Below are positions 3,078-26,280 of a stretch of DNA of 39,215 nucleotides, in pieces. Every line of letters begins with the position of its first letter. Positions within the stretch are counted from its first letter, which is position 1. The translations under genes and the position numbers were made by a program. The stretch spans positions 1 to 39,215 of the forward strand of contig JAQBUE010000026.1 in the NCBI GenBank assembly GCA_027624045.1. Reading direction: 5' to 3'. The stretch comes from Acidobacteriota bacterium (GTDB lineage Bacteria > Acidobacteriota > Terriglobia > Bryobacterales > UBA6623). The notes under the pieces were generated by a model. That model saw only the letters and a list, made by a program, of their open reading frames with translations. It ran no database searches and had not been told where the DNA came from.

Positions 3078-3797
3078 ATGCAGCAACGAATCTTGATAGT
3101 CGAAGATGAGCAGGGTCTGCGCTTGACGCTGTCCGACCGCCTCCGCAGCGAAGGGTATGAAGTCGATACAGCTTCCGACGGCGCTGAGGGTTATGAGCGT
3201 GCCTCGAAACTTCTATTCGATTTGATCGTGCTTGATCTGATGCTGCCCGAAAAGAGCGGTCTCGATGTTTGCCGCGATCTGCGGCGGATGGGCGTGACTA
3301 CTCCGGTGTTGATGTTAACCGCCCTCAGCCAGACGCATGACAAGGTCGTCGGTCTCAAGATCGGGGCCGACGATTACCTGACCAAGCCGTTCGAGATGGT
3401 GGAGCTGCTGGCGCGGATCGAAGCCCTGCTGCGCCGCCAGGATACGCCCTCGCGGCCACCCTCCTCCGCCTACCAGTTCGGCGCGGTCCGCGTGGACGTA
3501 CGGAGCACGCAGGCCTACCGCGATGAGAAGGAAGTAACGCTTTCGGCGAAGGAGTTCACGCTGTTGCGGTATCTGCTCGAACACCGCGGCGAGACACTGT
3601 CTCGTGAGAAGCTGCTGCATGAGGTTTGGGGATACGACAACATGCCCTCAACCCGAACCGTCGATGTGCATGTGGCCTGGCTGCGCCAGAAGCTCGAAGA
3701 AGACCCCAAGAAGCCGCGCTGGATACTAACCGTTCACGGCATCGGTTACAAGTTTGCCGAACAGAAAGAGCCTGCCGACCCGATCATGGGCGTGTGA
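3078..3797 (+). CDS. OmpR/PhoB-family response regulator transcription factor
   Basis: Receiver motifs (ILIVEDEQGLR, DLIVLDLMLPEKSG, TALS, K in DDYLTKPF) plus winged helix C-terminus (RTVDVHVAWLRQKLEEDPKKPRWILTVHGIGYKF); starts 2 nt after the HK stop. Confidence 0.96.
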   Translation: MQQRILIVEDEQGLRLTLSDRLRSEGYEVDTASDGAEGYERASKLLFDLIVLDLMLPEKSGLDVCRDLRRMGVTTPVLMLTALSQTHDKVVGLKIGADDYLTKPFEMVELLARIEALLRRQDTPSRPPSSAYQFGAVRVDVRSTQAYRDEKEVTLSAKEFTLLRYLLEHRGETLSREKLLHEVWGYDNMPSTRTVDVHVAWLRQKLEEDPKKPRWILTVHGIGYKFAEQKEPADPIMGV

Positions 3798-6789
3798 ACG
3801 TCAGCCTCTGCAATCCGACCTGACGTCGCCCCGGCAGATAGAAACCGAACTGCCCGTCCGACAGGTCTAACTGGCCGCCTGAAAAGCGGTCGATCTCGGT
3901 CCAATTCCCTTGTTCGCGGAGAGATGTGACAACCGCCCCGGAGCGAATGTCGATTCGCACGATGACGTAATCTCTCCAGTCCACCGCGTACCGCTTTCTG
4001 ATGTGCTCCCCGTGACGGCCGGCAGTGACCCGGCTTCGTTCAAAGTAGTCTTTGCCAATCTGAAAGTGCAGGTGGTTCTGCCGGGTGCTAAAGTCGACGA
4101 CCCATTCCAGGCGCTGTCCTTTCCGAACAAGGGCGGCGAATTCATACACGCCGGGCTGCGGCTGAAGAGGCGCCAGGAAGTAATTGCCCCCGGTGCGCAC
4201 GAGCAGGTCGTCCTGGCGCAGCCAGCCGCCGCGCTTCTCCCAGTCGGAGAGCTGAAACAAGGGCCCCGCCGGTTGGGCAATCGCGATGCGCTTCAGGGCG
4301 ATGCGGGCCGTTTTGGTCTCTTCGGGCGCCAGCCGGATGGTTGCTCCGTGATCCTTAAAGCCCTCGGAGGACACGCTGACCGTGTAGGTCCCCGCTTCGA
4401 GTTCAAGAACGCGGTTCGTCACCGTCCGTTCGGTGCTCTCACCTTCGCGGCGCAGGGTCAAGCGGACATCCGCGTTCGCCGGAGTCAACTCGATCCGCAG
4501 TGTTCCGGGCGCATTTTCCAGCGCCCCACTAACGTCGACGGACCCATTGGCGGCAAACTCCCGCTCAATCTCGCGCGGCTTGAACCCCTCCTTCTGCAAG
4601 ACCACCTTGTGCCGGCCCGGCTCGACGTTCGATATGGATAGGTTTCCGTCGGGTCCAAGTACACCGCTGCCGTTTCCGTCGAGCAGGACTTGCGTGCCCG
4701 GAGCGCCGTCGCGAATCCGAAGCGTGGCCGTCGTCGGCAGCGGCTCCAGTGTGAAGTTCAGCGCCACCTGTTCACCTTTGCGCACCGCGACGGTCTGCTC
4801 ACCGGACGGACGAAAACCCTCCTTCTCGACGCGAACCGAATACGTCTTCGGATAGAGGTAGATGAGTAGCCGGCCGCGCCTGGTCACACGCCGGTACTTG
4901 TCGCCATTGAGGAAGATCGCGACCCCGTCCTCCGCCGCATCAATCCGCAGTCCCCCGACGTTTCGATCGGACTGAATAAACGCCGCCAGCAGTGGTGAAG
5001 GCAAACTGTCGAACTCCACCTTGCGTGTCGTGCCGCCCGTCTTGACCTCAATCTCGTGCGCGCCTTCGCCCAAGTCGTTCCACTCCGTCGCCGTGTCACC
5101 CGTTTCGCTTCCGTCAAGTTGAACGGAGGTGATTTCACGGTCGCTATGGAGTTTCGCGGCCGAATGGAATCCGGCGACGACAACAGCGCTGAGGTCTCTT
5201 GTTTCGGGCAGACCGCTCAGCGTCGGCAGGGAGGCCGGAGCCATCTCGAAAGTGAAACTCGCCGTTGCCCCACTCGCGCTGACTTTCAACACGTGCTCGC
5301 CCAAGCTCAAACCTTCGACCTGCCGCTCCCACTCGCCGTCTTCCAATACGCCAAGGGGCTCGCCGTCAAGCTCCACGGTCCCGCTCGCGAGATCTGACGA
5401 AACGCGAATCAGCGGCGCCAAGGGCGGCAGCGTCACAACCACCGGCTCGATAACACCTTCACTGTCGACGTCGAAGGAAACGATCGTCGTGCGGTATCCG
5501 GTCAAGGTCGCTTCGGCGAAGTGAGTGCCGGGTTCGAGTTCGACTTCGCAGGCCGACGTCCCACAATTCCGGCTGTTCACAGAGAGCGCTGCCCCGGCTG
5601 GGTCGCTGCGGAAAGTGACGGCGCGCACAAGAATCGGCGGGGGCGCTTCAGCCTCCACACGGCTGTCACTCATCAACCAGACCGCAAAGATCATAATGAC
5701 GGCGATGCCCGCGCCCATCACGACCGGCAAAAATGGGCCTCCCTTGTCAAACTTCTTAAGCCAAGCGGCCCCTGCCGGAAGCTGCCTGCGCATCTCTTTA
5801 AGCAACCGAGCCGCGGCGCTTCCGGCAACTCGCATTCCTTCGTGCACCTGACGTACCAGTATCCTGGGCGTCGAGAATCCAGACTTTTCGGATTGGAGTT
5901 CGATCTCGGTTTCCGCTTCAGGCTGCGGCTCGTTCGCGGGCAGTTCCTCGATGTTCGCCCGCCCCTGGAAAAGTCGCGTCTCGTCCGGATACTTGGCGAT
6001 CCCCTGATCGAGTACCGCTCGCGCCCCGCGCCGGTCGCCCTGTTGCAGCAGGTGCTCCGACTGGGTCAGGCACCATTCGATGAACTCCTCTCGTTCCGGG
6101 CTTAGGCGATTTCTGATGTCGAGCGCCACTGGGTTCCGCGGATCGAGCTCCAGCGCTTGCTGCACCAAGTAAGCCGCTTCGTCGGGATGGGACTCCACGC
6201 GCCGCTCGGCGTTTCTTGTGAGCGCATCCAGAAGGCCTCCTCGGATGAGCGGATTTCCCGGATCGATCTCCACGGCTTCACGCAAACGGTCGAGGCTCTC
6301 GGCATCGTTTCCCTGCTCGGCCAGCCGCCTGCTCTCGACCAGCAGGCTTAAAGCGTCGGCAACGTCCTCGAACTGCGTGTCGAACGGAAACTCGAGCGCG
6401 CCCTGGCGCGCTGAGTCCAACGCCGCGGCAACGTTGCCGGAAGCAATCCACGCACGCATCTCCCGCTCGTGCCTGTCGAGTGCGCGCTCCTGCGCCTGCT
6501 CGTAGGCTGATTCAACCCACGTCTCAAGACCTTGGAACGATTCCAGAACTTCGGTCGCTATATAGTCGTGGCCGTCGCCGATCTCGATGACAGGCTGGGT
6601 GCCGGCCGGCGACTCGGAAAGCTGCTGAAGCCCCTCGGCCTTTTCGATCAACTCGGCGCCGCGCCCCGACTCGCCGGCGAACAGGTGCAGGTAGACCGGC
6701 CTGCCGCTCGCTTTCTCTGTTGCCTCGAAGGTCTTGACGTTACCGTCGAGCACGAGCTTTTGCAGTTCGTATTTGCTATGGAAGCTCAT
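3784..6789 (-). CDS. PEGA-domain repeat protein with kinase-N-lobe-like head, TPR-like region, one TM helix and C-terminal LamG/concanavalin-like domain
   Basis: 1001 aa; TM FLPVVMGAGIAVIMIFAVWLM; multiple PEGA-type repeats (RSDPAGAALSVNSRNCGTSACEVELEPGTHFAEATLTGYR; GVAIFLNGDKYRRVTRRGRLLIYLYPKTYSVRVEKEGFRP; TQVLLDGNGSGVLGPDGNLSISNVEPGRHKVVLQKEGFKP); TPR-like helices in residues ~110-270. Confidence 0.88.
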   Translation of the reverse strand: MSFHSKYELQKLVLDGNVKTFEATEKASGRPVYLHLFAGESGRGAELIEKAEGLQQLSESPAGTQPVIEIGDGHDYIATEVLESFQGLETWVESAYEQAQERALDRHEREMRAWIASGNVAAALDSARQGALEFPFDTQFEDVADALSLLVESRRLAEQGNDAESLDRLREAVEIDPGNPLIRGGLLDALTRNAERRVESHPDEAAYLVQQALELDPRNPVALDIRNRLSPEREEFIEWCLTQSEHLLQQGDRRGARAVLDQGIAKYPDETRLFQGRANIEELPANEPQPEAETEIELQSEKSGFSTPRILVRQVHEGMRVAGSAAARLLKEMRRQLPAGAAWLKKFDKGGPFLPVVMGAGIAVIMIFAVWLMSDSRVEAEAPPPILVRAVTFRSDPAGAALSVNSRNCGTSACEVELEPGTHFAEATLTGYRTTIVSFDVDSEGVIEPVVVTLPPLAPLIRVSSDLASGTVELDGEPLGVLEDGEWERQVEGLSLGEHVLKVSASGATASFTFEMAPASLPTLSGLPETRDLSAVVVAGFHSAAKLHSDREITSVQLDGSETGDTATEWNDLGEGAHEIEVKTGGTTRKVEFDSLPSPLLAAFIQSDRNVGGLRIDAAEDGVAIFLNGDKYRRVTRRGRLLIYLYPKTYSVRVEKEGFRPSGEQTVAVRKGEQVALNFTLEPLPTTATLRIRDGAPGTQVLLDGNGSGVLGPDGNLSISNVEPGRHKVVLQKEGFKPREIEREFAANGSVDVSGALENAPGTLRIELTPANADVRLTLRREGESTERTVTNRVLELEAGTYTVSVSSEGFKDHGATIRLAPEETKTARIALKRIAIAQPAGPLFQLSDWEKRGGWLRQDDLLVRTGGNYFLAPLQPQPGVYEFAALVRKGQRLEWVVDFSTRQNHLHFQIGKDYFERSRVTAGRHGEHIRKRYAVDWRDYVIVRIDIRSGAVVTSLREQGNWTEIDRFSGGQLDLSDGQFGFYLPGRRQVGLQRLTFTRP

Positions 6790-7888: not shown

Positions 7889-8749
7889 ATGCCCCGTAAG
7901 AAGAGCACGCCCTTCAACAACTACATCCTCGTCATCTTTGATAGCTGCCGCTACGATGCTTTCGCGCGTGCGCGGCCGAAGGTGATGAAGAAGCTCGGCA
8001 AAGTCGAAAAGCGCTGGTCTTACGCTTCCTGGACCGGGCCTTCGCACTACAACCTGCTGATGGGTTTACTCCCCCACCACAGCCCGAAGCGCGTGTTTGC
8101 GTCCGAGTACTACAAGAACGACTTCTTGCGCTACAACGAACGGCTTGGCACGGAAACAATTGAGTTCAAATCACTTGTTCCGCAACTCTACTTCCCATCC
8201 TTCCTCAAGCACAAGATGGGATACAGCACCCACGCGATGGTTTCGCTTCCCGTACTCAACCCGCGCACGATTCTCAATAACGGATTCGATTCCTATCAGT
8301 TGATGGATAAGCACAACGACATGCGGGCCATGGTCAAGCAGATGAAGTTCTCGGAAGACAAACCAAGCTTCCACCTGTTGAACGTGGGCGAAACACATTA
8401 CCCCTACGCCCTGCCCGACGAGCCGCCCGAGAACTGGCCGCGCATCAGCGGCGTTCATGGTGTCTTTAAGCATCTCGATGACCACGTCGTGGGCGGTAAG
8501 CTCGCCAAGTCGAAGGAAAAGTTCTTCAACCAGAAAGCGCTTGACGACCTGCGAGACCGCCAAGTTAAGGCGGTCAAGTACCTCGACCGAGTCGTGGAAG
8601 AGCTGTTCGATATCGTTCCTAAGAACACCTACATCACGATCACCGCCGACCATGGCGAACTCTTCGGCGAGGACGGCTACTTCGGCCACGGCCCCATCAT
8701 GCACGAGAAGGTTTTCGAGGTGCCGTTCGTCGAGGGCAAGATTCGATGA
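7889..8749 (+). CDS. Sulfatase-like alkaline phosphatase superfamily hydrolase (no Cys-type formylglycine motif)
   Basis: Metal-site motif VIFDSCRYDAF, nucleophile region SYASWTGPSHYNLLMGLLPH, TITADHGELFGEDGYFGHG; overlaps next gene by ATGA. Confidence 0.85.
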   Translation: MPRKKSTPFNNYILVIFDSCRYDAFARARPKVMKKLGKVEKRWSYASWTGPSHYNLLMGLLPHHSPKRVFASEYYKNDFLRYNERLGTETIEFKSLVPQLYFPSFLKHKMGYSTHAMVSLPVLNPRTILNNGFDSYQLMDKHNDMRAMVKQMKFSEDKPSFHLLNVGETHYPYALPDEPPENWPRISGVHGVFKHLDDHVVGGKLAKSKEKFFNQKALDDLRDRQVKAVKYLDRVVEELFDIVPKNTYITITADHGELFGEDGYFGHGPIMHEKVFEVPFVEGKIR

Positions 8750-10908
8750 AGAAAGCCGTCGGCAACGGCGGCAGGCTGATTGCCCGCTTGGTCGTCGGCG
8801 GAATCGCCGCCCTAACGCTGTTCTTTCTTGTTGACATCCCCTCGGCCCCGCCCCCAGAGCCGTATCTAGCCTACGTCGGTCCCGGCGCCGGGTTCGCGTT
8901 CCTCGGTTCATTCATGAGCCTGCTCGCCGCTTTTCTTGTGGGCGCCGCATCGATTCTCGCTTGGCCCGTGCGCGTGCTCTGGCGGACTCTGTCGGGCAAA
9001 AAAGGTTGGAAGGACGCCAAGGTTCGCAAGGTTATTTTCCTGGGACTCGACGGATACGATCCGGAACTCGCCGAGCGCTACATGGGCGAGGGTAAGCTGC
9101 CGAATCTCGCGGGCCTCCGCGACAGCGGAACCTACAGCCGTTTGCGAACTACTTACCCGCCGCTTTCACCTGTCGCCTGGTCGACGTTTGCCACTGGCGT
9201 CAATCCCGCCAAACACAGCCTGTACGATTTCCTGAACCGCAGCATGAAGACGTATCTTCCCGAGCTTTCTTCGTCGCGAGTGCGTGAGCCGGCGCGTTTT
9301 CTGCGCCTGGGCAAGTGGCGGTTTCCGTTGGGGAAGGCCTCCATTGATATGCGCCGCAAGAGCAAGACGTTCTGGAGCATTCTCGGCGACGAAGGCATTG
9401 ATTCGTCGATTCTCCGCGTCCCGATCACGTTCCCGCCCGAGAAATTCAATGGCCGTATGCTCTCAGCGATGTGTACGCCTGACTTGCTTGGCACACAGGG
9501 CACCTTTCAACAATTCACCACGGTGGGCGAGGGCGGACAGTTCGATGAAGCCGGCCAGCAGCGTCCTTTGACGCGCAACGGCAAGGGGTTCAAAGGCGCC
9601 ATCGAAGGCCCTCCCAATCCCCTCAAAGACGAATCGGGGCCCATGATCGTCGCCTTCACGCTTCAGGTCAATGGAGCCGGCAGCGGCAAACTCGCTGTCA
9701 ATGGATCGAGCTACGACCTCAAACCGGGCGAATACACGCCCTGGATTCGTCTCACCTTCCGCGCCGCCCCCGGCGTCAAAGTCGAAGGGATTGCGCGCTT
9801 CCTGCTGACCGAGACTAGTCCCAACGTTTCGCTCTACGTTACGCCCATTAATATCGATCCGGAAAAGCCTGCCCTGCCAATTTCGCACCCTACTTACTAC
9901 GCCACGTATTTAGCGAAACTGCTTGGCGCCTATTCCACCCTCGGGCTGGCCGAAGATACCTGGGCGCTCAACGAACGCGTCATCGACGAGCAGGCCTTCC
10001 TCGACCAGGCTTACTCCATCTGCGGTGAGCGCGAAGCAATGTTCGACAACGCGCTCGACAAGACGAAGAAGGGCATCGTCGCCTGCGTCTTCGATACCAG
10101 CGACCGCGTACAACATATGTTCTTCCGCTACCTCGAGCCCGACCATCCGGCTCATCGGAACAACCCGCATGGCAACGGCGCGACGCAGTACGAGAACGTC
10201 ATCGAAGACCTCTACCAGCGCATGGACACCATCGTCGGCAAGGCACTCAAACACGTTGACAAGGATACGGTGTTCTTCGTCCTCTCCGACCACGGTTTCA
10301 AGTCATTCCGGCGCGGCATCAATCTCAATGCTTGGCTGCTCCAGAACGGCTATCTTGCCCTCAAGGACGGCGCCGATCTGGGAACCCCCTATCTCAAAGG
10401 CGTCGACTGGTCTCGTACCCGCGCCTACACGTTCGGACTCACCGGCGTCTATCTCAATCAGGAAGGGCGCGAGGCCCAGGGTATTGTGGCCAAGGGCGAC
10501 GCCGCCGCGCTGAAACGCGAAATCAGCGACAAGCTGAGCGGTCTGCGTGACGACGAACTCGATCAGCTCGCGATTCAGCAGGCCTGGCCCAAGGAAACCA
10601 TCTATCACGGGCCCTACATGGATGTCGCGCCCGACATCGTCATCGGCTACGCCAACGGCTATCGAAGTTCGTGGGATGCCGCGCTGGGCAAAGTCACCGC
10701 CGAGGTGTTTCAAGATAATCTCAAAGCGTGGAGCGGCGACCATTGTGTCGACCCCGCCCTCGTTCCCGGCGTGATCTTCTGCAATCGCAAGTTCGACAGC
10801 GACAACCCCGGCATCGAAGACCTGGCGCCGACAACGCTGGGACTCTTCGGCCAGAAACCCCCGGCCTATATGGATGGCAATGATCTGTTCGCCGCCCCGA
10901 AAACGTAG
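8746..10908 (+). CDS. Alkaline phosphatase superfamily protein (type I phosphodiesterase/nucleotide pyrophosphatase-like), membrane-anchored
   Basis: N-terminal TM segments (LVVGGIAALTLFFLVDIP; PYLAYVGPGAGFAFLGSFMSLLAAFLVGAASILAW), KVIFLGLDGYDPELAERY, PPLSPVAWSTFATGVNPAKHSLYDF, FFVLSDHGFKSFRRGINLNAWLL. Confidence 0.9.
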   Translation: MKKAVGNGGRLIARLVVGGIAALTLFFLVDIPSAPPPEPYLAYVGPGAGFAFLGSFMSLLAAFLVGAASILAWPVRVLWRTLSGKKGWKDAKVRKVIFLGLDGYDPELAERYMGEGKLPNLAGLRDSGTYSRLRTTYPPLSPVAWSTFATGVNPAKHSLYDFLNRSMKTYLPELSSSRVREPARFLRLGKWRFPLGKASIDMRRKSKTFWSILGDEGIDSSILRVPITFPPEKFNGRMLSAMCTPDLLGTQGTFQQFTTVGEGGQFDEAGQQRPLTRNGKGFKGAIEGPPNPLKDESGPMIVAFTLQVNGAGSGKLAVNGSSYDLKPGEYTPWIRLTFRAAPGVKVEGIARFLLTETSPNVSLYVTPINIDPEKPALPISHPTYYATYLAKLLGAYSTLGLAEDTWALNERVIDEQAFLDQAYSICGEREAMFDNALDKTKKGIVACVFDTSDRVQHMFFRYLEPDHPAHRNNPHGNGATQYENVIEDLYQRMDTIVGKALKHVDKDTVFFVLSDHGFKSFRRGINLNAWLLQNGYLALKDGADLGTPYLKGVDWSRTRAYTFGLTGVYLNQEGREAQGIVAKGDAAALKREISDKLSGLRDDELDQLAIQQAWPKETIYHGPYMDVAPDIVIGYANGYRSSWDAALGKVTAEVFQDNLKAWSGDHCVDPALVPGVIFCNRKFDSDNPGIEDLAPTTLGLFGQKPPAYMDGNDLFAAPKT

Positions 10909-10928
10909 GGGCATGGCAGGCCGTGCCC
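10905..10928. repeat. Interspersed palindromic repeat copy 1 (GTAGGGGCATGGCAGGCCGTGCCC)
   Basis: Shares consensus GTAGGnGCAnGGCATGCCGTGCCC with two other intergenic copies; contains the TAG stop of the upstream gene. Confidence 0.6.
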
Positions 10929-10941
10929 ACGCCGAGCGCAA

Positions 10942-12888
10942 ATGAAGATCCGCGACAAAGCCACTCAAAACAGTGAACGCAAGTTCGCACCGGCCATCGC
11001 GGCTGTTTGCGCCCTAGCTCTGCTCATCCAAATCAACTGCGGCGGCCCCGTCACCGGCGATGTCGGCAAGCGTATCATCGTGCTCGGCATCGACGGCATG
11101 GACCCCAAATTCCTCGAAGCTCACTGGGATCAGCTTCCCAACCTCGACCGGCTGCGCCGCGAGGGCGACTTCAAATCCCTCGCCACCACCATCCCGCCGC
11201 AAAGTCCCGTCGCTTGGTCGAGCGTCATCACCGGACTCGACCCCGGCGGACACGGCATCTACGACTTCGTCCACCGCAACCCGTACTCGCGCATGCCGTT
11301 CTCATCCATGGCCGAGACGACCGAGGCCGGCAGCACGCTCGATATCGGCGACTGGGTGATTCCCCTCTCGTCCGCCGAAGTCAAACAGACGCGCCGCGGT
11401 GAAGCTTTTTGGCCGCATCTCACCGACGCCGGTATCCCGGCCAGTATCATCCGTATGCCGGCCAACTTCCCGCCCGCCGGTGAAGGGTCGCGCTCGCTCT
11501 CCGGCATGGGCACGCCCGACATGCATGGCACCTACGGCGAGTTCACCTTCTACACCGACGACCCGGAACGCAAGTCCGGAAATGTATCGGGCGGCGAAAT
11601 CGTGCGCCTTCCGGCGTTCCGTCATCACATCGAGCTGGAAATCAACGGCCCCGTCAATAGCTTCCTGAAAGACCACCCCGTAACAACCGTTCCCCTCACC
11701 GTGAACCGCGATCCCAGCGAGCCCATCGTGAGGTTCGATCTCGGCGAGGAGAGCTTCATCCTTAAAGAGGGTGAGTGGTCCGGCTGGCTGCGCGCAAGTT
11801 TCCCCCTGATCGGCGACCTGCAGAGCGCCTCGGGTATCTTCCGCGTCTTCCTGCGGCAGGTGCGGCCGCGCTTTGAACTTTACGTCACGCCCATTAACAT
11901 CGACCCCACCAGTGCGGCTCTCCCCATTTCAACTCCCGCTTCTTACAGCGCCGAACTGGCCGACGCCATTGGACTCTTTTACACCCAGGGCATGGCTGAA
12001 GACACCTCCGCCTACCGCCAAGGCGCTTTGAGCCTCGACGAATTCATGGAGCAAAGCCGCGACGTTCTCGAAGAGACACGCAGCATGTTGCGCTATGAGC
12101 TTTCGCAATTCAAGAGCGGACTCCTCTTCTTCTACGTTTCGAGCGTTGACCAGAATTCGCATATGCTCTGGGGACAGCACGACGACAAGCTGCTCGAAAT
12201 CTATCGCGAGACCGACAAGATGGTCGGCGAAGCGATGGAGCTGATCGACGACCAGACGACGCTGATCGTCATGTCCGACCATGGCTTCGAGCGCTTTGAC
12301 CGATCCGTGAACCTGAACACGCTGCTGCTACGCACCGGTTTTCTGGCGCTCGACGACCCGCGCAATACCGGCGGCGACGAGTTGTTCAAGCACGTCGATT
12401 GGTCCCGCACACGCGCTTACGCGATGGGCATCAACTCGCTCTACATCAACCGGCTTGGGCGTGAAGAGGGTGGCATCGTCGCCGAGGGCGAAGAGTTCCA
12501 ACAGACCATCGCGGAGCTCCGCAAGGCGCTACTTGCATTCCGTGACCCTGAAAACGGCGAGCAGCTGATCGAAGAGTTATACGAGTCAGAAAAAGTGTAT
12601 AAGGCCCTTCCCACCGAGTTCGCGCCGGATCTAATCGTCGGCTACCGTCCGCCCTATCGCGCGTCATGGGAAACAGGTCTCGGCGGCGTCCCCGCCCAAA
12701 CCGTTGTCGATAATGACGACGCCTGGATCGGCGACCATTGCATCGCCCCGCAATACGTGCCCGGCGTTCTGCTCAGTAATCGCAAAATTACTCTCGGCGA
12801 CCCCGGCCTCACCGACGTCCCTGTAACACTGTTGCGCGAGTTTGGCGTCGAGGTTCCCGGCGACATGATCGGACGCCCCTTGTTTTGA
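10942..12888 (+). CDS. Alkaline phosphatase superfamily protein, paralogous to preceding gene
   Basis: IIVLGIDGMDPKFLEAHW, PPQSPVAWSSVITGLDPGGHGIYDFVHR, LIVMSDHGFERFDRSVNLNTLLL; shares LYVTPINIDP..ALPIS and overall architecture with 8746..10908; lipoprotein-like N-terminus ending in LLIQINCGG. Confidence 0.9.
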   Translation: MKIRDKATQNSERKFAPAIAAVCALALLIQINCGGPVTGDVGKRIIVLGIDGMDPKFLEAHWDQLPNLDRLRREGDFKSLATTIPPQSPVAWSSVITGLDPGGHGIYDFVHRNPYSRMPFSSMAETTEAGSTLDIGDWVIPLSSAEVKQTRRGEAFWPHLTDAGIPASIIRMPANFPPAGEGSRSLSGMGTPDMHGTYGEFTFYTDDPERKSGNVSGGEIVRLPAFRHHIELEINGPVNSFLKDHPVTTVPLTVNRDPSEPIVRFDLGEESFILKEGEWSGWLRASFPLIGDLQSASGIFRVFLRQVRPRFELYVTPINIDPTSAALPISTPASYSAELADAIGLFYTQGMAEDTSAYRQGALSLDEFMEQSRDVLEETRSMLRYELSQFKSGLLFFYVSSVDQNSHMLWGQHDDKLLEIYRETDKMVGEAMELIDDQTTLIVMSDHGFERFDRSVNLNTLLLRTGFLALDDPRNTGGDELFKHVDWSRTRAYAMGINSLYINRLGREEGGIVAEGEEFQQTIAELRKALLAFRDPENGEQLIEELYESEKVYKALPTEFAPDLIVGYRPPYRASWETGLGGVPAQTVVDNDDAWIGDHCIAPQYVPGVLLSNRKITLGDPGLTDVPVTLLREFGVEVPGDMIGRPLF

Positions 12889-12941
12889 GTTCTTCAGCGC
12901 CCAGACACGCTAGGATGGGATCTACACACTAGGATTTAGCC

Positions 12942-13136
12942 ATGTTCGGACCTTCAATCAAACTCGACAAAGACCTCTACGACCGCATCAAACGCTGCTC
13001 CGACGCGGCCGGCTATTCCTCGCCCAAAGAGCTGATCCAGCACGTCCTCGAACGCGAGCTCGAAAAGATCGAAGTGGACGCGCGCTCCGACGAAGAAATC
13101 GTCAAGAAGATGCAGGGGCTCGGCTACATCGATTGA
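12942..13136 (+). CDS. Small ribbon-helix-helix (CopG-like) protein
   Basis: 64 aa; beta strand SIKLDKDLYDRIKRCSDAAGYSSPKELIQHVLEREL has RHH-like pattern. Confidence 0.7.
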   Translation: MFGPSIKLDKDLYDRIKRCSDAAGYSSPKELIQHVLERELEKIEVDARSDEEIVKKMQGLGYID

Positions 13137-13167
13137 TCCACCCCTAAGACCGCCCGCCTAACCTCCC

Positions 13168-13986
13168 GTGGACTTCTTTAACCTCGTACTACGCACTGTG
13201 ATCGGCGGCATTTGCGGCCTCGGCATCGGCCTGCATCCGATGATCGGGATGACGCTCATCTCGTCCCTTACCGGCATCGGCATGTTGTGGGTCTTCGGCA
13301 GGACATCAAACCAGGACGCCATCGCGACAACCAAAAAACGTCTGCAAGCCTATCTACTCGAGATGCGGCTGTTCGGCGACGACATCGGACTCGTTTTTTC
13401 CGCGCAGAGGAAACTCATCTTCGGAAACGTTCGCTACATCGGCTTGATGATGAAGCCGATGATTTTTCTCACCGCGCCGCTGCTGCTTCTCCTCATTCAC
13501 ATGGACGCCTTCTACGGCGCGACGCCGCTCGTCATCGGCGAGCCCGCTGTCGTTACCCTGCAAGCCTCCGGACGATTCGGTACGAATGCCGCCGTACCCG
13601 AACTCGAAGCCCCCGCCGGCATCCGGGTAGAAACGCCCGGCGTTCGCGTCATCGAAAGCGGCCAAATGAGCTGGCGCATTCGCGCCGAGCAACCCGTCGA
13701 AGGTGATCTCAAATTCCGTTGGGGCGGCAAGGAGTGGACCAAGTCCGTCGCCTCCGGAGACCCCTTCCGCAACCTCTCCATCCGCCGCGTTACCGGCCTC
13801 TGGGATTCCCTCTTGAACGTCGGAGAAGATCGTCTAGCCCAAGACGAAGTCGACTGGATCGAAATCCGCTACCCAGCCGCCGAAGTCCCCCTAGCCGGCC
13901 TCAAGCTGCACTGGCTCATCTGGTTTTTCGTCATCTCGATGGTCGCCGCCTACGCCCTAAAGGGCTACTTCGGCGTGACCTTCTAA
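13168..13986 (+). CDS. Membrane protein with three hydrophobic segments, basic cytoplasmic-type hairpin and large beta-rich loop; possible Oxa1/YidC/EMC3/DUF106-superfamily relative
   Basis: GTG start; TM1 VIGGICGLGIGLHPMIGMTLISSLTGIGMLWVFG, basic hairpin TSNQDAIATTKKRLQAYLLEMRLFGDDIGLVFSAQRKLIFGNVRYIG, TM2 KPMIFLTAPLLLLLIHM, loop domain, TM3 LHWLIWFFVISMVAAYALKGYF. Confidence 0.8.
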   Translation: MDFFNLVLRTVIGGICGLGIGLHPMIGMTLISSLTGIGMLWVFGRTSNQDAIATTKKRLQAYLLEMRLFGDDIGLVFSAQRKLIFGNVRYIGLMMKPMIFLTAPLLLLLIHMDAFYGATPLVIGEPAVVTLQASGRFGTNAAVPELEAPAGIRVETPGVRVIESGQMSWRIRAEQPVEGDLKFRWGGKEWTKSVASGDPFRNLSIRRVTGLWDSLLNVGEDRLAQDEVDWIEIRYPAAEVPLAGLKLHWLIWFFVISMVAAYALKGYFGVTF

Positions 13987-14519: not shown

Positions 14520-17303
14520 ATGCGAAGTTTCTTGCGCCTCGGTGGCGCGCTCGCCGTCGTCGCTGTTTCCGCTTGGCTCTGGCTAAGCCAACCCGACTCC
14601 TCAAACACGGCCGTAGCCCAAGCCTTCTCCGCCAACCAGCAAGCCTTCCTCATCCGCTTCGGCGTCAACGATACCCAACCTCGCAATTGGAGCGGCGAAG
14701 TCCGCGTCGAGAACGGACGCGTCGTCAATCTCGATCCGTGGCAATTCAGCAAAGGTGACGAGCTGCTCTCCGACTCCGCCTGGACTTGCGCCACAACCAC
14801 CGATACCTACTGGGACGCCCCCTGGGAGCGCAGCCTCGAAGGCACCAAGCGCCGCACCCGGCTCACCGCCAAAGGCGTCTTGCTGCGCATCGAAATGGCC
14901 GGTCCCGGCAAGATCAACATCCGGACCGCACAAGGTTCGTTCACCTTTAACCCCGAAGAGCTTTCCTGGTCCCGCCCCAAAACTTTCGCCGACGGACGCG
15001 TCGTCATCAGCCTCTCGCCGTCGCCCCAAAACCTTACCGAAGGCCCCGCCGCCGAAGACTATGTTGACGCCATCGAGTCATCAAAGGGCCAACGCTGGGT
15101 CGCCTACCAAACCTACGATGACGGCTCTGACCAGATCTGGATTCGCCGTGATGACGACGCCCCCGTCCCCCTGACCGACCCGGGACGCGATCTCTTCCGA
15201 GTCCAACTCGCCGAAGATTCCCAAGCACGCATCTGGGCCGTCTGGTCCGAGCAACGAGCCTCCAACTGGGACCTTTTCGCACGCGCTTTCGACGGCAATA
15301 GCTGGGGCGAAGAAACCCAACTCAGCACCGCTCCCGGCTCCGACATCTTTCACTCACTCGCCCGCGACGGCCAAGGCAATCTCTATCTCGTCTGGCAGGG
15401 CGTGCGCTCAGGCAACAGCGACATCTTCTTGCGAACCTATCGCGATGGCCGCTGGCAGCCGGAGGTTCAAGTCAGCGACGACCCCGCCAACGACTGGGAA
15501 CCGCAAGTCGCCGCCTCCAAAGACGGTGAAGTCTCGATCGTCTGGGACACCTACTCAAAAGGCAACTACGACGTCCTCATGAAGCAACTGCGCCGCGGAC
15601 GCTTCTCCGACGCCATCACCATCGCCGACTCTGATTCCTTCGAAGCTCGCGCCACCGCCCACTACGACTCCGGCGGCCGCCTCTGGCTCGCATGGGATGA
15701 AGGCGACGCCGACTGGGGCAAGGACTACGTGGCGGGCGCGCAGGACGCCGGCATGGGCCTGCTCCAGCGCCGCCAGGTTCGCGTCGCCACTTACAGCAAC
15801 GGCCGTCTCGAACAACTCCCCGGCAACCTCCCCGCCGCTCCGCCGGATGAAACCAGCCCAGTCTTCCAATCCCCGCGCCTCGCGGTCGACGGAAACGGCA
15901 ATCCATGGGTCTTCTTCCGCTACCGCACGCACACGCCCGTCGTTCAAGGCGAAGACAAGTTCCGTTCCATGTGGCGACTCGGAGCAACCAGCTACCAAAA
16001 CGGCGCATGGACGCCGCTCGTCCGCTTCCCCCTCGGCTACGGACGCATCGACATGCCCGTCTCGGTTTACACAGATTCCGGCGGCGACATCCAGGTCCAT
16101 TGGGCGAGCGACGGCCGGGAGTTCCCCGACGGCTTTCAGCGCGAGCAGAATCTTTTTGCGGCTGCTCTGACGGCCGACGCTCCGCCCGATAGCGCCCTCA
16201 CATTCGTTGCCTTCAAACCGTCAACTGACAAGTCCGCGCAAGTCCACCCAAACGAAACCACCGACGTTGCACGCCTGCGAAACTACCGAGCCGAGGTCGG
16301 CGGCAAAACCTACCGTCCCGTTCGCGGCGACATGCACCGCCACACCGATATGTCATGGGACGGTAATCGCGACGGCTCGCTCTTCGATGCCTACCGATAC
16401 GCGCTCGATGCCGCCGGACACGACTTCCTCGGCGTCGCCGACCATCAAGCCGGGGGAGAGGTTGAATACAGTTGGTGGATGATTCAGAAGGCCGTCGACC
16501 TGTTTACGATTCCCGGCAAATTCACACCGCTCTACGGCTACGAACGCAGCCGCGGTTATCCCAGCGGCCACCGCAACGCCATGTTTGCCCAACGCGGCGT
16601 GCCCGTTGTGAAGATGCTCGACGAAGAGCGCGAACGAAACAACGAGGTCGGCGTCGAGCATTTCTACGCAGACCTGCGCAAGAATCGCGGCGTTGTGATG
16701 AGCCACACCTCCGCCACCGGCGCCGGAACCGACTGGCGCGACAGCGATCCCGACGTCGAAACGCTCGTCGAAATCTACCAGGGCTACCGCCGCAACTACG
16801 AACATGAAGGCGCGCCGCGTTCGACCGATCGAGGCAGCCGTCCCGCCGGGTTCGTCTGGAAGGCCTGGGAGAAGGGGCTGAAACTGGGAGTGCAAGCTAG
16901 CTCCGATCACGTCTCAACTCACACATCCCACGGCATGATCTGGGTCGAGGACCTCAACCGCGAGAACATCATCGAAGCAATCCGCGCCCGCCACGCCTAC
17001 GCTGCTACGGACAACATCCTCGTCGACTTCCGCGTTAACGGCCGCCTCATCGGCGACGCGTTCGAAACCACGGAACGCCCCAAACTCGAAGCAAACATTG
17101 TGGGGACCGGGCTCGTGCGCAAAGTCGAGGTCATCAAAAACAACACCTATATCCACACTCAGAAGGGCGGCGGGCCCGAACTCTCCTTCACATATGTCGA
17201 CAACGATGTCCGCGAAGGCGAGAGCTACTACTACATCCGCGTTGAGCAGGAAAACGGCGAACTAGCGTGGGCGTCCCCTGTCTGGGTAACCTATAAGAAA
17301 TAG
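14520..17303 (+). CDS. Secreted beta-propeller plus DUF3604/PHP-like metallohydrolase domain protein
   Basis: Signal-like N-terminus; propeller-like repeats (WVAYQTYDDGSDQIWIRR, IWAVWSEQRASNWDLFARAFDG, LYLVWQGVRSGNSDIFLRTYRDG, VSIVWDTYSKGNYDVLMKQLRRG); C-terminal GDMHRHTDMSWDGNRDGSLFDAYRYALDAAGHDFLGVADHQAGG. Confidence 0.85.
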   Translation: MRSFLRLGGALAVVAVSAWLWLSQPDSSNTAVAQAFSANQQAFLIRFGVNDTQPRNWSGEVRVENGRVVNLDPWQFSKGDELLSDSAWTCATTTDTYWDAPWERSLEGTKRRTRLTAKGVLLRIEMAGPGKINIRTAQGSFTFNPEELSWSRPKTFADGRVVISLSPSPQNLTEGPAAEDYVDAIESSKGQRWVAYQTYDDGSDQIWIRRDDDAPVPLTDPGRDLFRVQLAEDSQARIWAVWSEQRASNWDLFARAFDGNSWGEETQLSTAPGSDIFHSLARDGQGNLYLVWQGVRSGNSDIFLRTYRDGRWQPEVQVSDDPANDWEPQVAASKDGEVSIVWDTYSKGNYDVLMKQLRRGRFSDAITIADSDSFEARATAHYDSGGRLWLAWDEGDADWGKDYVAGAQDAGMGLLQRRQVRVATYSNGRLEQLPGNLPAAPPDETSPVFQSPRLAVDGNGNPWVFFRYRTHTPVVQGEDKFRSMWRLGATSYQNGAWTPLVRFPLGYGRIDMPVSVYTDSGGDIQVHWASDGREFPDGFQREQNLFAAALTADAPPDSALTFVAFKPSTDKSAQVHPNETTDVARLRNYRAEVGGKTYRPVRGDMHRHTDMSWDGNRDGSLFDAYRYALDAAGHDFLGVADHQAGGEVEYSWWMIQKAVDLFTIPGKFTPLYGYERSRGYPSGHRNAMFAQRGVPVVKMLDEERERNNEVGVEHFYADLRKNRGVVMSHTSATGAGTDWRDSDPDVETLVEIYQGYRRNYEHEGAPRSTDRGSRPAGFVWKAWEKGLKLGVQASSDHVSTHTSHGMIWVEDLNRENIIEAIRARHAYAATDNILVDFRVNGRLIGDAFETTERPKLEANIVGTGLVRKVEVIKNNTYIHTQKGGGPELSFTYVDNDVREGESYYYIRVEQENGELAWASPVWVTYKK

Positions 17304-17317
17304 TTCGACCGCCCAAC

Positions 17318-17341
17318 GTAGGTGCACGGCATGCCGTGCCC
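17318..17341. repeat. Interspersed palindromic repeat copy 2 (GTAGGTGCACGGCATGCCGTGCCC)
   Basis: Contains perfect 16-bp palindrome GCACGGCATGCCGTGC (17324..17339). Confidence 0.7.
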
Positions 17342-17381
17342 GGTTCGACGAACGCCGACGCACCACCTCAAAGGCTACACA

Positions 17382-18635
17382 ATGGAATCCACAAACAACC
17401 TCTCTCGACGCTCCTTCGTTGCAAGTACGATCGCCGGCAGCGCCGTAGCAGCATCCGCGCGCGCCATGGCCGCCGCTCGCGTTCCGCGCATCATCGGAGC
17501 CAATGACCGTCTTAACGCCGCCGTCATCGGAGCGGGCGGCAATGCCACCGGCCACATGAAGGGCCTGCTCGAACTAAAAGAGGCCGAAAACGTCGAGATC
17601 ATCGCGGTCTGTGACATCTACCAGAAGCGCCTTGATGCCGCCGCCGAGCTCACCGGCGGCAAGCCCTATCACGACTACCGCCAAGTGCTCGAGAACCCAG
17701 ATATTGACTACGTCGTCATCTCCGTCCCCGAGCATTGGCACGCGCGGATGACCCTGGACGCCATCGATGCCGGCAAGCACGTCTATTGCGAGAAGCCGGT
17801 GACGTTCTCGATCGACGAGGGCCTGAAGGTCCGCAAGCGCGTCAAGCAGAGCAAGATCAAAATGCAGGTCGGCGTGCAAGGCATGTCCGACGACTCTTAC
17901 ATCACCGCGCGGCGCTACATCAAAGAGGGCAAGTTAGGCAAAATCGTCGCGGCGCAGATTGATTACTCGCGCAACCACCTCGACGACTACTGGACGAGAC
18001 CCTTCGACGACGACGTTCGTCCCGGCGAAAACCTTGACTGGAACGCTTTCCTCGGCTCCGCCAAGAAGCGTCCCTTCGACCCTGACCGCTTCTTCGCCTG
18101 GCGGCGTTACTGGGACTACTGCGGCGGCATCGCCACCGATTTATTCGTCCACCGGCTCACGCGCATCATCAAGGCCTGCGATCTGACCGTGCCCAGCCAA
18201 GTTGTTGCCACCGGCGGTAAGAACTTCTTTGCAAAGAGCGCCGCGGAGATTCCCGACACGTTCAATATGATGGTTGACTATCCCGAAGGCATCTCAGTCG
18301 CTGTCCTTTCATCCATGGCCAACTCCGCCCCGATTCGGCACCTCATTCGCGGCCACGAAGCGACTCTCGAGTTCACTAAGGAAGGCTTTACAATCACCCC
18401 GGAACGCGAATTCGCCAAGGACCGCGAGGTCCTGACTCATGTCAAAACGGGCGCCGAAGACGTCCGCCTGCACCATGCCAACCATCACCGCGCGATCCGC
18501 TTCAACGAGCCGCTGAACTGCGACATCGATCTCGGCTTCCATGGCATGTTGGCCTGCCGCATGGCCGTCGATTCATTTCGAACGAAACGGTATCTAGCGT
18601 GGGATGCGCGGCGAGAGAAGGTAGTTAAGGCGTAG
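17382..18635 (+). CDS. Gfo/Idh/MocA family oxidoreductase with Tat-type signal
   Basis: Twin-arginine [26 protein letters not shown]; Rossmann [35 protein letters not shown] opens at 17322, likely start ATG 17382. Confidence 0.9.
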
Positions 18636-22051: not shown

Positions 22052-23386
22052 CTAACCACCGGGCAAGGCCCGCAGTACCTCATGAATCTGCCCCAACACC
22101 CAATCCGTCTCCGTCTCTGAAATCACGTACGGCGGCATGAAATACAAAACGTTACCCAGCGGACGCAACAACACCCCGCGCCCCAAGAACTCCCCATAAA
22201 GCCGAGGCCCGATATCCGCCAGATACCCGCCGGCCGCGCTTGATTCCGCATCCTCAGTCAGTTCGACGATCCCCACGCCGCCAATCACCCGCACATCCCC
22301 CACGCACGCCAACGAACGCAACGGCTCCAGTCCAGCTCGCAGCTGCTTCTCGATCCCCGCGACGCGCTGCAGCGTGCCCTCTTCGCGAAACACATCCAGG
22401 CTCGCCAACCCCACCGCGCACCCCAGCGGATTCGCCGTGAACGAATGTCCGTGGAAAAAGGTCTTCGCTCGATCGTCGCTCAGAAAAGCCTCGTAGATGC
22501 TGTCCGTCATCGCCGTCGCCGCAAACGGCAAGTAGCCCGCCGAGAGTCCCTTCGACAAGCACATCAGGTCAGGACTCACCGGGCCATGCTCGGAAGCGAA
22601 CATCCGGCCCGTGCGTCCGAACCCCGTCATCACCTCGTCCGCGATCATCAGAGTCCCATGTTCGTCGCAAAGCTTTCGCACGCCTGACAAAAACTCACGA
22701 GGCCAAACGATCATCCCCCCCGCCGCCTGTAACATGGGCTCAACGATCACACCCGCAACCCGTCCGCCCTCGTCGCGCAGAATCCGTTCAAGATCCGCCA
22801 AACAATCAACAGCGCAACTCGCACGCTCCAGCCCTATGGGACATCGAAAGCAATAAGGTGCATGAGCCCGCGCCACCCGGAACAGCAATCCCTCGAACGA
22901 GAGAGTGAAGATCGACTCTTCGCTCACCGACATCGTCGCAACCGTGTCGCCGTGATAAGCGAACTTGAGCCCGACGAACAGCCGCCGCTCCGGCTCGCCG
23001 CGATTGCGCCAATACTGATAGGCCATCTTGAGCGCAACCTCGACCGCCGTCGAACCGTTATCGGAGTAGAAAATCCGGTTTAGCCCCGCGGGCAGAAGTT
23101 CCGTGAGCCGTTCCGCCAACTCAACCGCGGGACGGTGCGTGAACCCCGCGAAGATCACGTGCTCCAGTTCACCCGCCTGCCGGGTTAGCGCTTCGTTCAG
23201 CTTCGGGTGGCTATGCCCATGAATATTCACCCACCAAGACGAAATCCCGTCCAGAATCTTCCGGCCGTCCTCCGTATACAGATAGACGCCTTCGCCCCGA
23301 ACCACAGGGATCGGCGGCGGCGCTGTCTGCATCTGCGTATACGGATGCCACAGCCGCGCCAGGTCTCGCTCAACAAGGCTCGACAT
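22052..23386 (-). CDS. bioA: Adenosylmethionine-8-amino-7-oxononanoate aminotransferase
   Basis: LWHPYTQM N-terminal signature, GISSWWVNIHGHSHPKLN, FIFYSDNGSTAVEVALKMA-type region, LMIADEVMTGFGRTGRMFA, FFHGHSFTANPLGCAV. Confidence 0.96.
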   Translation of the reverse strand: MSSLVERDLARLWHPYTQMQTAPPPIPVVRGEGVYLYTEDGRKILDGISSWWVNIHGHSHPKLNEALTRQAGELEHVIFAGFTHRPAVELAERLTELLPAGLNRIFYSDNGSTAVEVALKMAYQYWRNRGEPERRLFVGLKFAYHGDTVATMSVSEESIFTLSFEGLLFRVARAHAPYCFRCPIGLERASCAVDCLADLERILRDEGGRVAGVIVEPMLQAAGGMIVWPREFLSGVRKLCDEHGTLMIADEVMTGFGRTGRMFASEHGPVSPDLMCLSKGLSAGYLPFAATAMTDSIYEAFLSDDRAKTFFHGHSFTANPLGCAVGLASLDVFREEGTLQRVAGIEKQLRAGLEPLRSLACVGDVRVIGGVGIVELTEDAESSAAGGYLADIGPRLYGEFLGRGVLLRPLGNVLYFMPPYVISETETDWVLGQIHEVLRALPGG

Positions 23387-23406
23387 TTAGAGTTCCTGAC
23401 AGGAGT

Positions 23407-24063
23407 CTACCGCCAAAGATGTCCTGCCCTATCCAACTCGTCTCTCGCCCAATCTCCAACCACCGCCGCCGTCAGCTCACGAAACAGGGGCATTTCCGCG
23501 ATGACCCGCGTCCGGCCATAGTGCTCGATCGCGTGGCGGTTCTCCTCGTTTCGTTCTCCCACCATCACGACACCGGCCACTTTCAGCGACCGCTGTTTGA
23601 GGGCCTCCAGCGTCAACAAAGTGTGATTGATCGTCCCCACCGCCGTCCGCGCCACCACCAGCGCCGGCAAGCCAAGCCGCGCCATCCAGTCCGTCATTAA
23701 CTCTCGGTCGTTCAGCGGAACAAGCACTCCGCCCGCGCCCTCGACAATCCATGTCCGATCCGTCGCCAGCCTGCCCGCCAACGATTCTAAATCCGCCAAC
23801 GCGATCGTCGTCCCGCTCAGCCGTGCGGCCAGATGGGGCGAAACCGGATTCCGCAACCGCACACCCTCGTCGAAGATTTCCACCTCCGCGCAGTCGCCCA
23901 AATCTCTCACAACCGCCGTGTCGTCATCCTGCTCGATGCCGGTTTGCACCGGCTTCCAGTAGCCAAGAGGTCGCTCGTCGCGGTAGCGCTGCATCAACGC
24001 CGAGCAAACGATTGTCTTGCCGACGCCCGTGTCCGTCCCCGTTACGAAGAGGCCGCGCCGCAT
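23407..24063 (-). CDS. bioD: Dethiobiotin synthase
   Basis: [22 protein letters not shown]-loop, GYWKPVQTGIE, WIVEGAGGVLVPL; overlaps bioF by 22 nt. Confidence 0.95.
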   Translation of the reverse strand: MRRGLFVTGTDTGVGKTIVCSALMQRYRDERPLGYWKPVQTGIEQDDDTAVVRDLGDCAEVEIFDEGVRLRNPVSPHLAARLSGTTIALADLESLAGRLATDRTWIVEGAGGVLVPLNDRELMTDWMARLGLPALVVARTAVGTINHTLLTLEALKQRSLKVAGVVMVGERNEENRHAIEHYGRTRVIAEMPLFRELTAAVVGDWARDELDRAGHLWR

Positions 24064-25208
24064 GCCACCTTCTCCGCCAAGGCCGCAACGACCAATGCCA
24101 CAAACGCCTCAAGGTCGGCCTCGTGTAATTTCGCATTCACCGAGATCCGCAGCCGTGCTGTGCCTTCGGGGACCGTGGGCGGACGGATCGCGCGAACATC
24201 GAAACCTTCTTGCTGAAGCACCGTCGCCACCTCTACCGCTCGCTCGTTATCGCCCAGAAAGATGGGGATGATCTGCGATTCTCCATCAGTTCCGCGGATA
24301 CCCGCCTCCGACAACAACGTGCGCAAACGCCGCGCAAACACCAGTGTCTTCGCGCGCAGTTCGGGCTGCTCGGCGATCACATTCAAAGCGGCATCGATTG
24401 CCGCCGCGACCGAAGGCGGCGACGCCGTCGTGAATACGAACGTGCGAGCCCGCTGCACCAGAAAGTCGATCGCCCAGCGCGGTCCCGCCACGAACGCCCC
24501 GCTCACACCCAAGGCTTTTCCCGCCGTGTTAACGGAAAGGAACACATCCGCGTCAATGCCCGATCGCTCAATCAGTCCGCTGCCGCGCTCGCCATACACA
24601 CCAACCGCGTGCGCCTCATCAACGATCAATCTCGTATCCGTCTCGCGGCAAAGCTCCGCGTACTCGGCGAGCGGCGCAATATCGCCATCCATGCTGAACA
24701 ACGATTCGGTAACCAGGAACCGCTGCCCCTCTCCCGGCTCGGAGCGCCGCGTCGATCCCAACAGCGAGCGCAACGCCGTCACATCGCAATGCGGGAAGAT
24801 TACCCTCCGCGCGCGCCCCAGACGCATACCGTCAATCAAACTGGCATGATTCAACTCATCCGAGAAGACGACGTCACCCTCCTCGAGAAATGTCGATAGA
24901 ACGCCCAAGTTTGCCGCGTAGCCGCTCGAGAAGTAGAGGCTTGCCTCATTGCCCTTCCACGCGGCGAAACGCTCTTCAATCTGCGCAAAGCCGGCCCGCT
25001 CGCCTCTGAGCAGCCGCGATCCCGTGGAACCCACACCCTCGTGCAGCACCGCCTGAGCCATCGCCGCGCGCACCAGTCGATGGTCGGCCAAGCCCAAGTA
25101 ATCATTGGAAGAGAGATCGATTCCCGCGGGTCGCCGGAGTTTTCTCGTTAGACCTTTCGCCTCGATTTCGTCGAGGGCAAGTCTGGTTCGTTGTTCGAGA
25201 TCAGCCAT
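24042..25208 (-). CDS. bioF: 8-amino-7-oxononanoate synthase
   Basis: [90 protein letters not shown]; likely start ATG 25208. Confidence 0.95.
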
Positions 25209-26280
25209 GATTGGCTGTCGCAACAGTGGAGTTTTCGATCAGGGCGCTGCCGTGAGGCGCCGCCGTCACCGGCTCTTCCATGAGCCGCATCCCCAGCTTA
25301 TCGAGAAGCTGCCGGTCGCGGTCCATCTCAGGGTTGGGCGTGGTCAGCAACCGATCCCCCATGAAGACCGAATTCGCCCCCGCTACGAAACACAGCGCCT
25401 GGGCCTCATCCGACATCGAGAGGCGTCCCGCACTCAATCGCACCATCGAGGCCGGCATCAAAATCCGCGCCGCCCCGATCATCCGCACCAGCTCTAGATG
25501 ATCTGCCTGTTTCTGGTTCGCAAGCGGCGTTCCCTCCACGCTCACAAGCATATTGATCGGCACGCTCTCGGGGTGAGGTTTCTGATTCGCCAATTCACGC
25601 AGCAGTCCCACACGATCCTGCCGGCTCTCGCCCATTCCGATGATGCCGCCGCAGCATACCGTGACTCCCGCTTGCCGCACTCGCTCCAGCGTCTCCAGCC
25701 GTTCTTCGTAACGCCGCGTCGTGATGATCTCGCCGTAGAACTCAGGCGATGTATCGAGATTATGGTTGTACGCGGTGAGTCCTGCCTCGGCAAGCTGATC
25801 CGCCTGCCGCTGCGTCAGCATCCCGAGCGTGCAACAGGCCTCCATGCCCAACCGCCGCACGCCCCGCACCATCTCCACCACCTGCTCAAACTCTTCTCCC
25901 TCAGGCGCATCTCTCCACGCGGCGCCCATGCAAAAGCGGGTCGCACCGTTGCCGTGCGCCGTCTCTGCCATTCGTAGCGTCTCGGCAACGCTCATCAAAC
26001 CCGCCGACTGTACGTCGGTCTTGTAATGTGCCGACTGCGGGCAGTACGCACAATCCTCCGGGCATCCGCCGGTCTTGATGCTCAACAGCGAGCAGCCCTG
26101 TACCTCCGCTGGGTTGTGAAACACCCGATGCACCGCCTGGGCCCGAAACAATAGCTCCGGCAACGGTAGGTCAAGAATGGATGAGATTTCCGGCGCCTGC
26201 CAGTCATGGCGCAACGCTGGCTTGGGGTATGAGGTCACGTCAGCAGTATCCAGTGTGGGAGACCTTACATTATGCGACAC
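25201..26280 (-). CDS. bioB: Biotin synthase
   Basis: [20 protein letters not shown] radical-SAM signature, [51 protein letters not shown]. Confidence 0.97.

Follow-up and report, generated by a model that had tools for sequence, protein, structure and literature searches.

Gene content of the locus

The 39,215-nucleotide stretch of DNA analysed here, referred to as the window, lies on contig C136 of a 5.5 Mb draft genome (G000) whose closest named relatives among the genomes fetched are Bryobacteraceae/Solibacter-type Acidobacteriota. It contains a row of genes for proteins of the alkaline phosphatase (AP) superfamily, a small ribbon-helix-helix (RHH)-like protein and a membrane protein (MP) with three transmembrane (TM) helices, which an original prediction, made from the sequence, had proposed as an envelope-modifying module. 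All five consecutive forward-strand open reading frames (ORFs) of that prediction, with their overlap or short gaps, were found at the positions given in it (Table 1). The overlap of Gene 1 with PDE1 is 4 bp, the gaps further downstream are 33, 53 and 31 bp, and the next long forward-strand ORF begins 534 bp past MP. Promoter and terminator scans of the window remained near chance level, and an Rfam scan of it returned no family.

Table 1. Position and features of the five genes and of the RHH tail in the window
Feature	Position	Strand	Description
Gene 1	7889-8749	+	286 aa; AP-superfamily, PF00884 fold; lineage-specific neighbour, outside the core
PDE1	8746-10908	+	720 aa; signal/TM segment, Y-x-GPGAG, second TM segment, basic linker, PF01663 domain
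PDE2	10942-12888	+	648 aa; paralogue of PDE1, predicted exported; PF01663
RHH	12942-13136	+	64 aa; ribbon-helix-helix-like; C-terminal GLGY invariant
RHH C-terminal tail EIVKKMQGLGYID	13095-13133	+	also ends adenosine 5'-phosphosulfate (APS) kinases, CysD and sulfatase-like proteins in relatives
MP	13168-13986	+	272 aa, GTG start; predicted Oxa1-superfamily member (archaeal YidC/DUF106-EMC3 type) with immunoglobulin (Ig)-like domain

Conservation of the PDE1-PDE2-RHH-MP operon

PDE1, PDE2, RHH and MP almost certainly form one functional operon. Each protein was queried against the same 149 Acidobacteriota genomes, and MP was found in 38 of them, at 39 loci in about 22 of the sampled families. 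RHH occurs in the same number of genomes (38), and matches to PDE1 and PDE2 extend to more genomes than those of MP because the AP superfamily is large. When coordinates were joined, RHH and PDE2 were each adjacent to MP at 38/39 loci, which rules out chance adjacency, and PDE1 at 32/39, all joined members sharing the strand of MP. Several of the seven loci lacking PDE1 are close to contig ends. Exceptions in gene order are G023, with PDE2-RHH-MP-PDE1, and G062, in which RHH lies beyond PDE1 on the opposite strand. The original prediction had looked to co-occurrence of at least four of the five genes in divergent genera, and the four operon members do stand together at these 32 loci across the families. 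Moreover, pairwise identities across 27 loci are correlated among MP, RHH and PDE1 (r from 0.64 to 0.80; MP-PDE1 r = 0.75 and MP-RHH r = 0.80, with 0/2000 permutations as high), which fits joint descent of the genes.

In the family to which the window belongs, MP is present in 18/18 genomes, and it is single-copy in nearly all genomes. The tightest pair is RHH-MP, since in five inspected Bryobacteraceae genomes (G162, G165, G168, G176 and G177) the two stand together without PDE1 or PDE2 in the immediate neighbourhood, in most cases directly downstream of a bioB-F-D-like trio of biotin genes. Gene 1 is located elsewhere than RHH-MP in the same five genomes; in G161 it is near PDE1, and RHH-MP is on a separate contig. 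Overall, Gene 1 was found in 16/18 family genomes (74-85% identity in the 15 others), mostly away from MP, and the whole row including it is kept only in G000, G163, G166 and apparently G164, where it is split across two contigs. Beyond its own lineage, the phylum search gave only weak, general AP-superfamily matches for Gene 1. The weak matches and the usual separate location rule it out as a core member, so that of the single five-gene pathway first proposed, PDE1, PDE2, RHH and MP are retained and Gene 1 is not.

The description of Gene 1 as sulfatase-like likewise holds for the fold (PF00884, 6.8e-10) and fails for the active site. The formylglycine motif C/S-x-P-x-R is absent from Gene 1, which excludes a formylglycine sulfatase; instead, a threonine is placed in an NPP-like motif (NPP, nucleotide pyrophosphatase/phosphodiesterase), T49-G-P-S-H-Y, and a DHG is found at 254. 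The name sulfatase is thus not justified for Gene 1 on mechanistic grounds. The formylglycine motif also appears to be lacking in PF00884 sulfatase-like proteins near the module in other genomes (cluster C4; loci L003, L005-L009, L069, L076, L080 and L086). The few C/S-x-P-x-R strings in this cluster are not at the usual place, and several members have Thr or Ser in TLPTHAS-like motifs.

No match to MP was found among 72,556 plasmids, and no relatives of PDE1 in viral contigs, which speaks against mobile or phage cargo. Outside Acidobacteriota, a search limited to four genomes around a planctomycete gave no match. A literature search found no description of such an operon. The module is thus real and apparently undescribed, combining known families in a new way.

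A bacterial protein of the archaeal YidC/EMC3 type

The most unusual part of the module is MP, a bacterial protein of archaeal type which, judged by its sequence, very probably belongs to the archaeal YidC/EMC3 branch of the Oxa1 superfamily; membrane insertion is at most a predicted activity. In the AlphaFold2 (AF2) model, built with 36 homologues (pLDDT 92), helices span residues 2-18, 24-46, 49-68, 73-116 and 249-263, and an Ig-like domain (residues ~120-247; beta domain in the model at 126-247) is placed between the second and third TM helices. A K/R-rich segment covers residues 44-92. The protein thus comprises three TM helices and an N-terminal helix, its three-TM core being accompanied by a predicted cytoplasmic helical hairpin. 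The original prediction was right about the three TM helices and did not mention the beta domain.

Its tentative label of an insertase-like protein is supported by a profile search against 177,635 PDB sequences, in which the sole match to MP was the archaeal YidC MJ0480 (5c8j; E=5.3e-11, residues 7-120). A second, weaker MJ0480 segment aligns the last TM helices, so that TM helices 1 and 2, the hairpin and the final TM helix are matched collinearly. The family PF01956 (EMC3_TMCO1) matches MP places in six genomes, over the cut-off in one of them (G021), and in 14 control genomes it gave matches only in three archaea. The remaining PF01956 matches in Acidobacteriota, at larger ORFs, presumably represent ordinary YidC. 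The standard YidC of the window's genome is encoded by a separate gene, as PF02096 finds a single place in it (G000:C79), which is not MP, and no profile match between MP and this YidC could be detected (hhalign probability 0.2). Both results rule out MP as the canonical YidC, and with a normal YidC in the same genome it would be an additional Oxa1-superfamily protein of archaeal/EMC3 type.

DUF106/archaeal YidC, EMC3 and TMCO1 have been described as archaeal and eukaryotic (PMC8887752, PMC8675477), DUF106 being either called archaeal or placed beside YidC as a prokaryotic insertase. MP resembles archaeal YidC (DUF106, MJ0480, PF01956), EMC3 and TMCO1 in the three-helix core and the cytoplasmic helical hairpin. 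It differs from them in being bacterial and coexisting with a standard YidC, in the extra Ig-like domain ahead of the last TM helix, and in being encoded in one operon together with an RHH protein and enzymes of the AP superfamily. A member of this branch tied to enzymes bears on the spread of the Oxa1 superfamily and on its roles other than insertion.

PDE1 and PDE2

The two phosphodiesterase-like proteins, proposed earlier to be paralogues, both match PF01663 over the cut-off (PDE1 5.5e-30, PDE2 1.1e-36), and they are paralogous over 627 aligned columns. Seven positions, D102, S141, D453, H457, D515, H516 and H666 in PDE1 numbering, are invariant in 57/57 PDE1 and PDE2 sequences. We take S141 to be the nucleophile and the other six residues to be the metal ligands of the AP superfamily. 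With all seven intact, both PDE1 and PDE2 should be enzymatically active.

NPPs and phosphonoacetate hydrolase (PhnA) are among the solved structures that come closest in profile searches. Matches to PhnA in NCBIfam are weak, and all NCBIfam matches are far under their cut-offs. The likeness to NPP and PhnA within PF01663 thus consists of the seven catalytic and metal positions and of profile matches to NPP and PhnA structures. In contrast to these enzymes, PDE1 and PDE2 have a Ser nucleophile, an insert of ~250 residues that separates the nucleophile region from the second metal motif, anchoring to the membrane, and a predicted arrangement as an inside/outside pair.

This arrangement is suggested by the N-terminal parts of the two proteins. 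Homologues of PDE1 are composed, from the N- to the C-terminus, of a signal-like segment, the Y-x-GPGAG motif (34/37), a TM helix, a linker with a mean net charge of +4.6 and the catalytic domain. The basic linker, combined with the positive-inside rule, predicts a cytoplasmic active site. N-termini of PDE2 homologues are twin-arginine-like in 11/33 and lipobox-like in 8/33, and on account of these signals the active site of PDE2 is predicted to be extracytoplasmic.

RHH and its C-terminal tail

The RHH sequence contains a strand with K-x-K-L, a turn with GYSS-x-EEF and, close to the C-terminus, an invariant GLGY. Its earlier label as a ribbon-helix-helix protein is plausible and weak in terms of scores, the match to PF01402 being under the cut-off (E=0.027) and that of the RHH profile to NikR RHH-domain structures reaching E=0.02. 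In G059, a second, shorter RHH-like gene (L071 8183-8533) stands in tandem with the module RHH and is devoid of the LGY tail.

The C-terminal tail, with a consensus of roughly (S/T)xEEExIxx(K/R)L(K/R)xLGY(I/L), ends 44/549 neighbourhood proteins, compared with 0.7 expected. It is carried by RHH (30/33), APS kinases (3/4), CysD (2/3) and sulfatase-like proteins (6/12). A stricter tail pattern was found in 1/356 other ORFs, itself an RHH frame. In sulfatase-like proteins running on into tetratricopeptide repeats (TPRs), the tail element is internal, after the catalytic domain. A docking tag or a degron is a possible explanation for the tail. Searches for the LGY tail in solved structures and for a literature description of the motif found neither.

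The LxxLGY tail is common to C-termini of non-homologous proteins, namely two RHH families, APS kinase, CysD, AP-superfamily and sulfatase-like proteins (L067, L068, L087, L090, L094-L098 and L102-L107, in addition to the window).

Genes of sulfate activation in the neighbourhood

APS kinase genes are located within 12 kb of 7/39 MP loci, in five families, compared with ~0.28 expected from genome-wide counts. More broadly, ATP sulfurylase, APS kinase, CysN/CysD, CysQ or a P-loop sulfotransferase was found nearby in 15 of about 40 fetched loci. A third PF01663 AP protein is placed directly upstream of PDE1 in 11 loci, and relatives of this protein adjoin APS kinase at other loci. Finally, a second cassette, RHH(LGY)-ATP sulfurylase-AP460-APS kinase, was disclosed in other genomes, partly with CysQ nearby. 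Loci with the second cassette (L095, L096, L097, L102, L104 and L105) belong to several acidobacterial families, and their PF01663 member is ~460 aa long.

Transfer of sulfate by AP-fold proteins has a precedent. In Halobacterium, the AP-fold proteins Agl30 and Agl31, one membrane-bound and the other soluble, are sulfotransferases that sulfate a lipid-linked glycan (PMC11980604), and such transfer is thus possible for proteins of this fold. The likeness of the module to the Halobacterium salinarum pair consists of the AP fold, the combination of a membrane-bound and a soluble enzyme, and the link to sulfate transfer (PMC11980604). Unlike for the module, no Oxa1-type or RHH partner is noted in the text consulted.

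Proposed function and alternative explanations

Taken together, the observations underlying the original prediction are confirmed and its interpretation is partly supported. The module probably works at the envelope, as was proposed, and the neighbouring genes point to sulfate activation and sulfotransfer, which the prediction had not seen. The best overall reading, which we offer tentatively, is a sulfation-linked envelope module with MP as its membrane core. Sulfate as the chemistry of the module is a possibility held with similar reserve, and with somewhat greater hesitation we suggest that PDE1 and PDE2 might be transferases rather than hydrolases.

According to this model, MP would form the core in the membrane, with a three-helix groove and a cytoplasmic hairpin to receive or hold PDE1's TM segment; the Ig-like domain of MP would extend outside toward PDE2. 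PDE1 on the inner and PDE2 on the outer side of the membrane would use the conserved Ser and a pair of metals for stepwise transfer or removal of an ester group, sulfate or phosphate, on a surface glycan or lipid linked to the membrane. The donor pool would be 3'-phosphoadenosine 5'-phosphosulfate (PAPS), provided by the sulfate-activation genes that adjoin the operon in several relatives. RHH would be a dimeric partner or a regulator. Because its tail is also present on APS kinase, CysD and sulfatase-like proteins, it may tie the module, through regulation or contact, to the supply of sulfate. If the link with sulfate is true, the module would give bacteria a way to sulfated surface molecules that uses the AP superfamily and parallels that of Halobacterium. 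A tail common to unrelated proteins that handle sulfate would offer a new approach to the organisation of the pathway. It is rather doubtful that MP has gone as far as leaving general insertion to become the core of a sulfation machine holding AP transferases inside and outside, with LxxLGY of RHH as a common docking or control signal of sulfate-activation and AP-superfamily proteins.

A number of observations weigh against the sulfation-linked module. No sulfate-activation genes were found in the window, the APS kinase of G000 is on another contig beside assimilation-type genes, and most module loci are without APS kinase nearby; for this window, the sulfate link is therefore drawn via relatives only, its own APS kinase not being near the operon. 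The RHH-MP pairs of the five Bryobacteraceae genomes, without PDE1 and PDE2 beside them, also fit poorly. Agl30 and Agl31 are arylsulfatase-like (PF00884-like), in contrast to PDE1 and PDE2 of PF01663, and are likened to them by fold and description only. Sidedness of the module proteins is a matter of predicted topology. As regards MP, that of the window taken alone is under the PF01956 cut-off (16.6 of 27.1 bits). Among the 50 matches that Foldseek listed for the whole model, there were Ig/filamin-like partners of the beta domain only and no Oxa1-superfamily structure, and the TM fragment gave no match below E=1, so that the ancestry of MP rests on sequence profiles and topology.

The alternative that survives best, and which we nevertheless consider unlikely, gives MP the role of a dedicated insertase or membrane chaperone, with PDE1, and perhaps other small membrane proteins, as clients, and leaves the enzymes with ordinary phosphodiester hydrolysis. 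It would suit the place of MP in the archaeal YidC/EMC3 branch and the TM pair of PDE1, which would need to be inserted N-out/C-in, and MP would then be a specialised protein beside the separate standard YidC kept by the genome. However, Sec/YidC is normally enough for one protein with a signal and a TM segment, RHH-MP persist where PDE1 and PDE2 do not adjoin, and the large extracytoplasmic Ig-like domain is unexpected in a minimal insertase.

Unlikely as well is a catabolic module, in which PDE1 and PDE2 would be NPP/PhnA-type nucleotide or phosphonate phosphodiesterases that recycle PAPS or its desulfated form PAP, nucleotide sugars and phosphodiesters inside and outside the cell. The NPPs and phosphonoacetate hydrolase among the closest solved relatives, the weak PhnA matches and the complete two-metal site are consistent with such enzymes, and nearby PAPS genes would equally fit PAP(S) breakdown. 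For nucleotide salvage, though, the combination of a membrane-anchored PDE1, its exported paralogue and an Oxa1-type protein would be unusual, the usual PAP phosphatase CysQ is already present in some of the same neighbourhoods, and every NCBIfam match is far under its cut-off.

Less probable still, the module could make or edit a phosphate-linked polymer by phosphoglycerol- or phosphoethanolamine-like transfer without any role of sulfate, sulfate genes being nearby since polysaccharide islands collect modifications. Transferases of the lipoteichoic-acid synthase (LtaS) and EptA type are members of the AP superfamily with TM segments, and their targets are polymers or lipids of the envelope, as is proposed for the module. 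A weak EptA match was obtained for Gene 1, and in one relative the APS-kinase cassette is near a polysaccharide flippase. LtaS and EptA possess several TM helices and an extracytoplasmic domain, whereas the domain of PDE1 is predicted to be cytoplasmic, and the recurring named neighbours of the module are sulfate activation genes and sulfotransferases. A toxin-antitoxin-like pair of an RHH antitoxin and a membrane toxin, merely travelling with the enzymes, would agree with a membrane protein gene immediately preceded by a small RHH gene and with a pair able to stand alone, but is highly improbable for a conserved Oxa1-type protein rather than a small pore, single-copy and present throughout the family, missing from the plasmids searched, and diverging in correlation with RHH and PDE1.

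Other genes in the window

Downstream of the module, at 14520-18635, the window contains genes for a beta-propeller/CehA-McbA-like protein (927 aa) and a Gfo/Idh/MocA oxidoreductase, and both genes have kept their place next to the module in genomes of the same genus (G163, G164). A 1001-aa protein with TPR and PEGA repeats is encoded on the reverse strand at 3784-6789. Also on the reverse strand, at 22052-26280, there is a group of biotin-synthesis-like genes (BATS radical SAM, class I/II aminotransferase, AAA_26 and class III aminotransferase).

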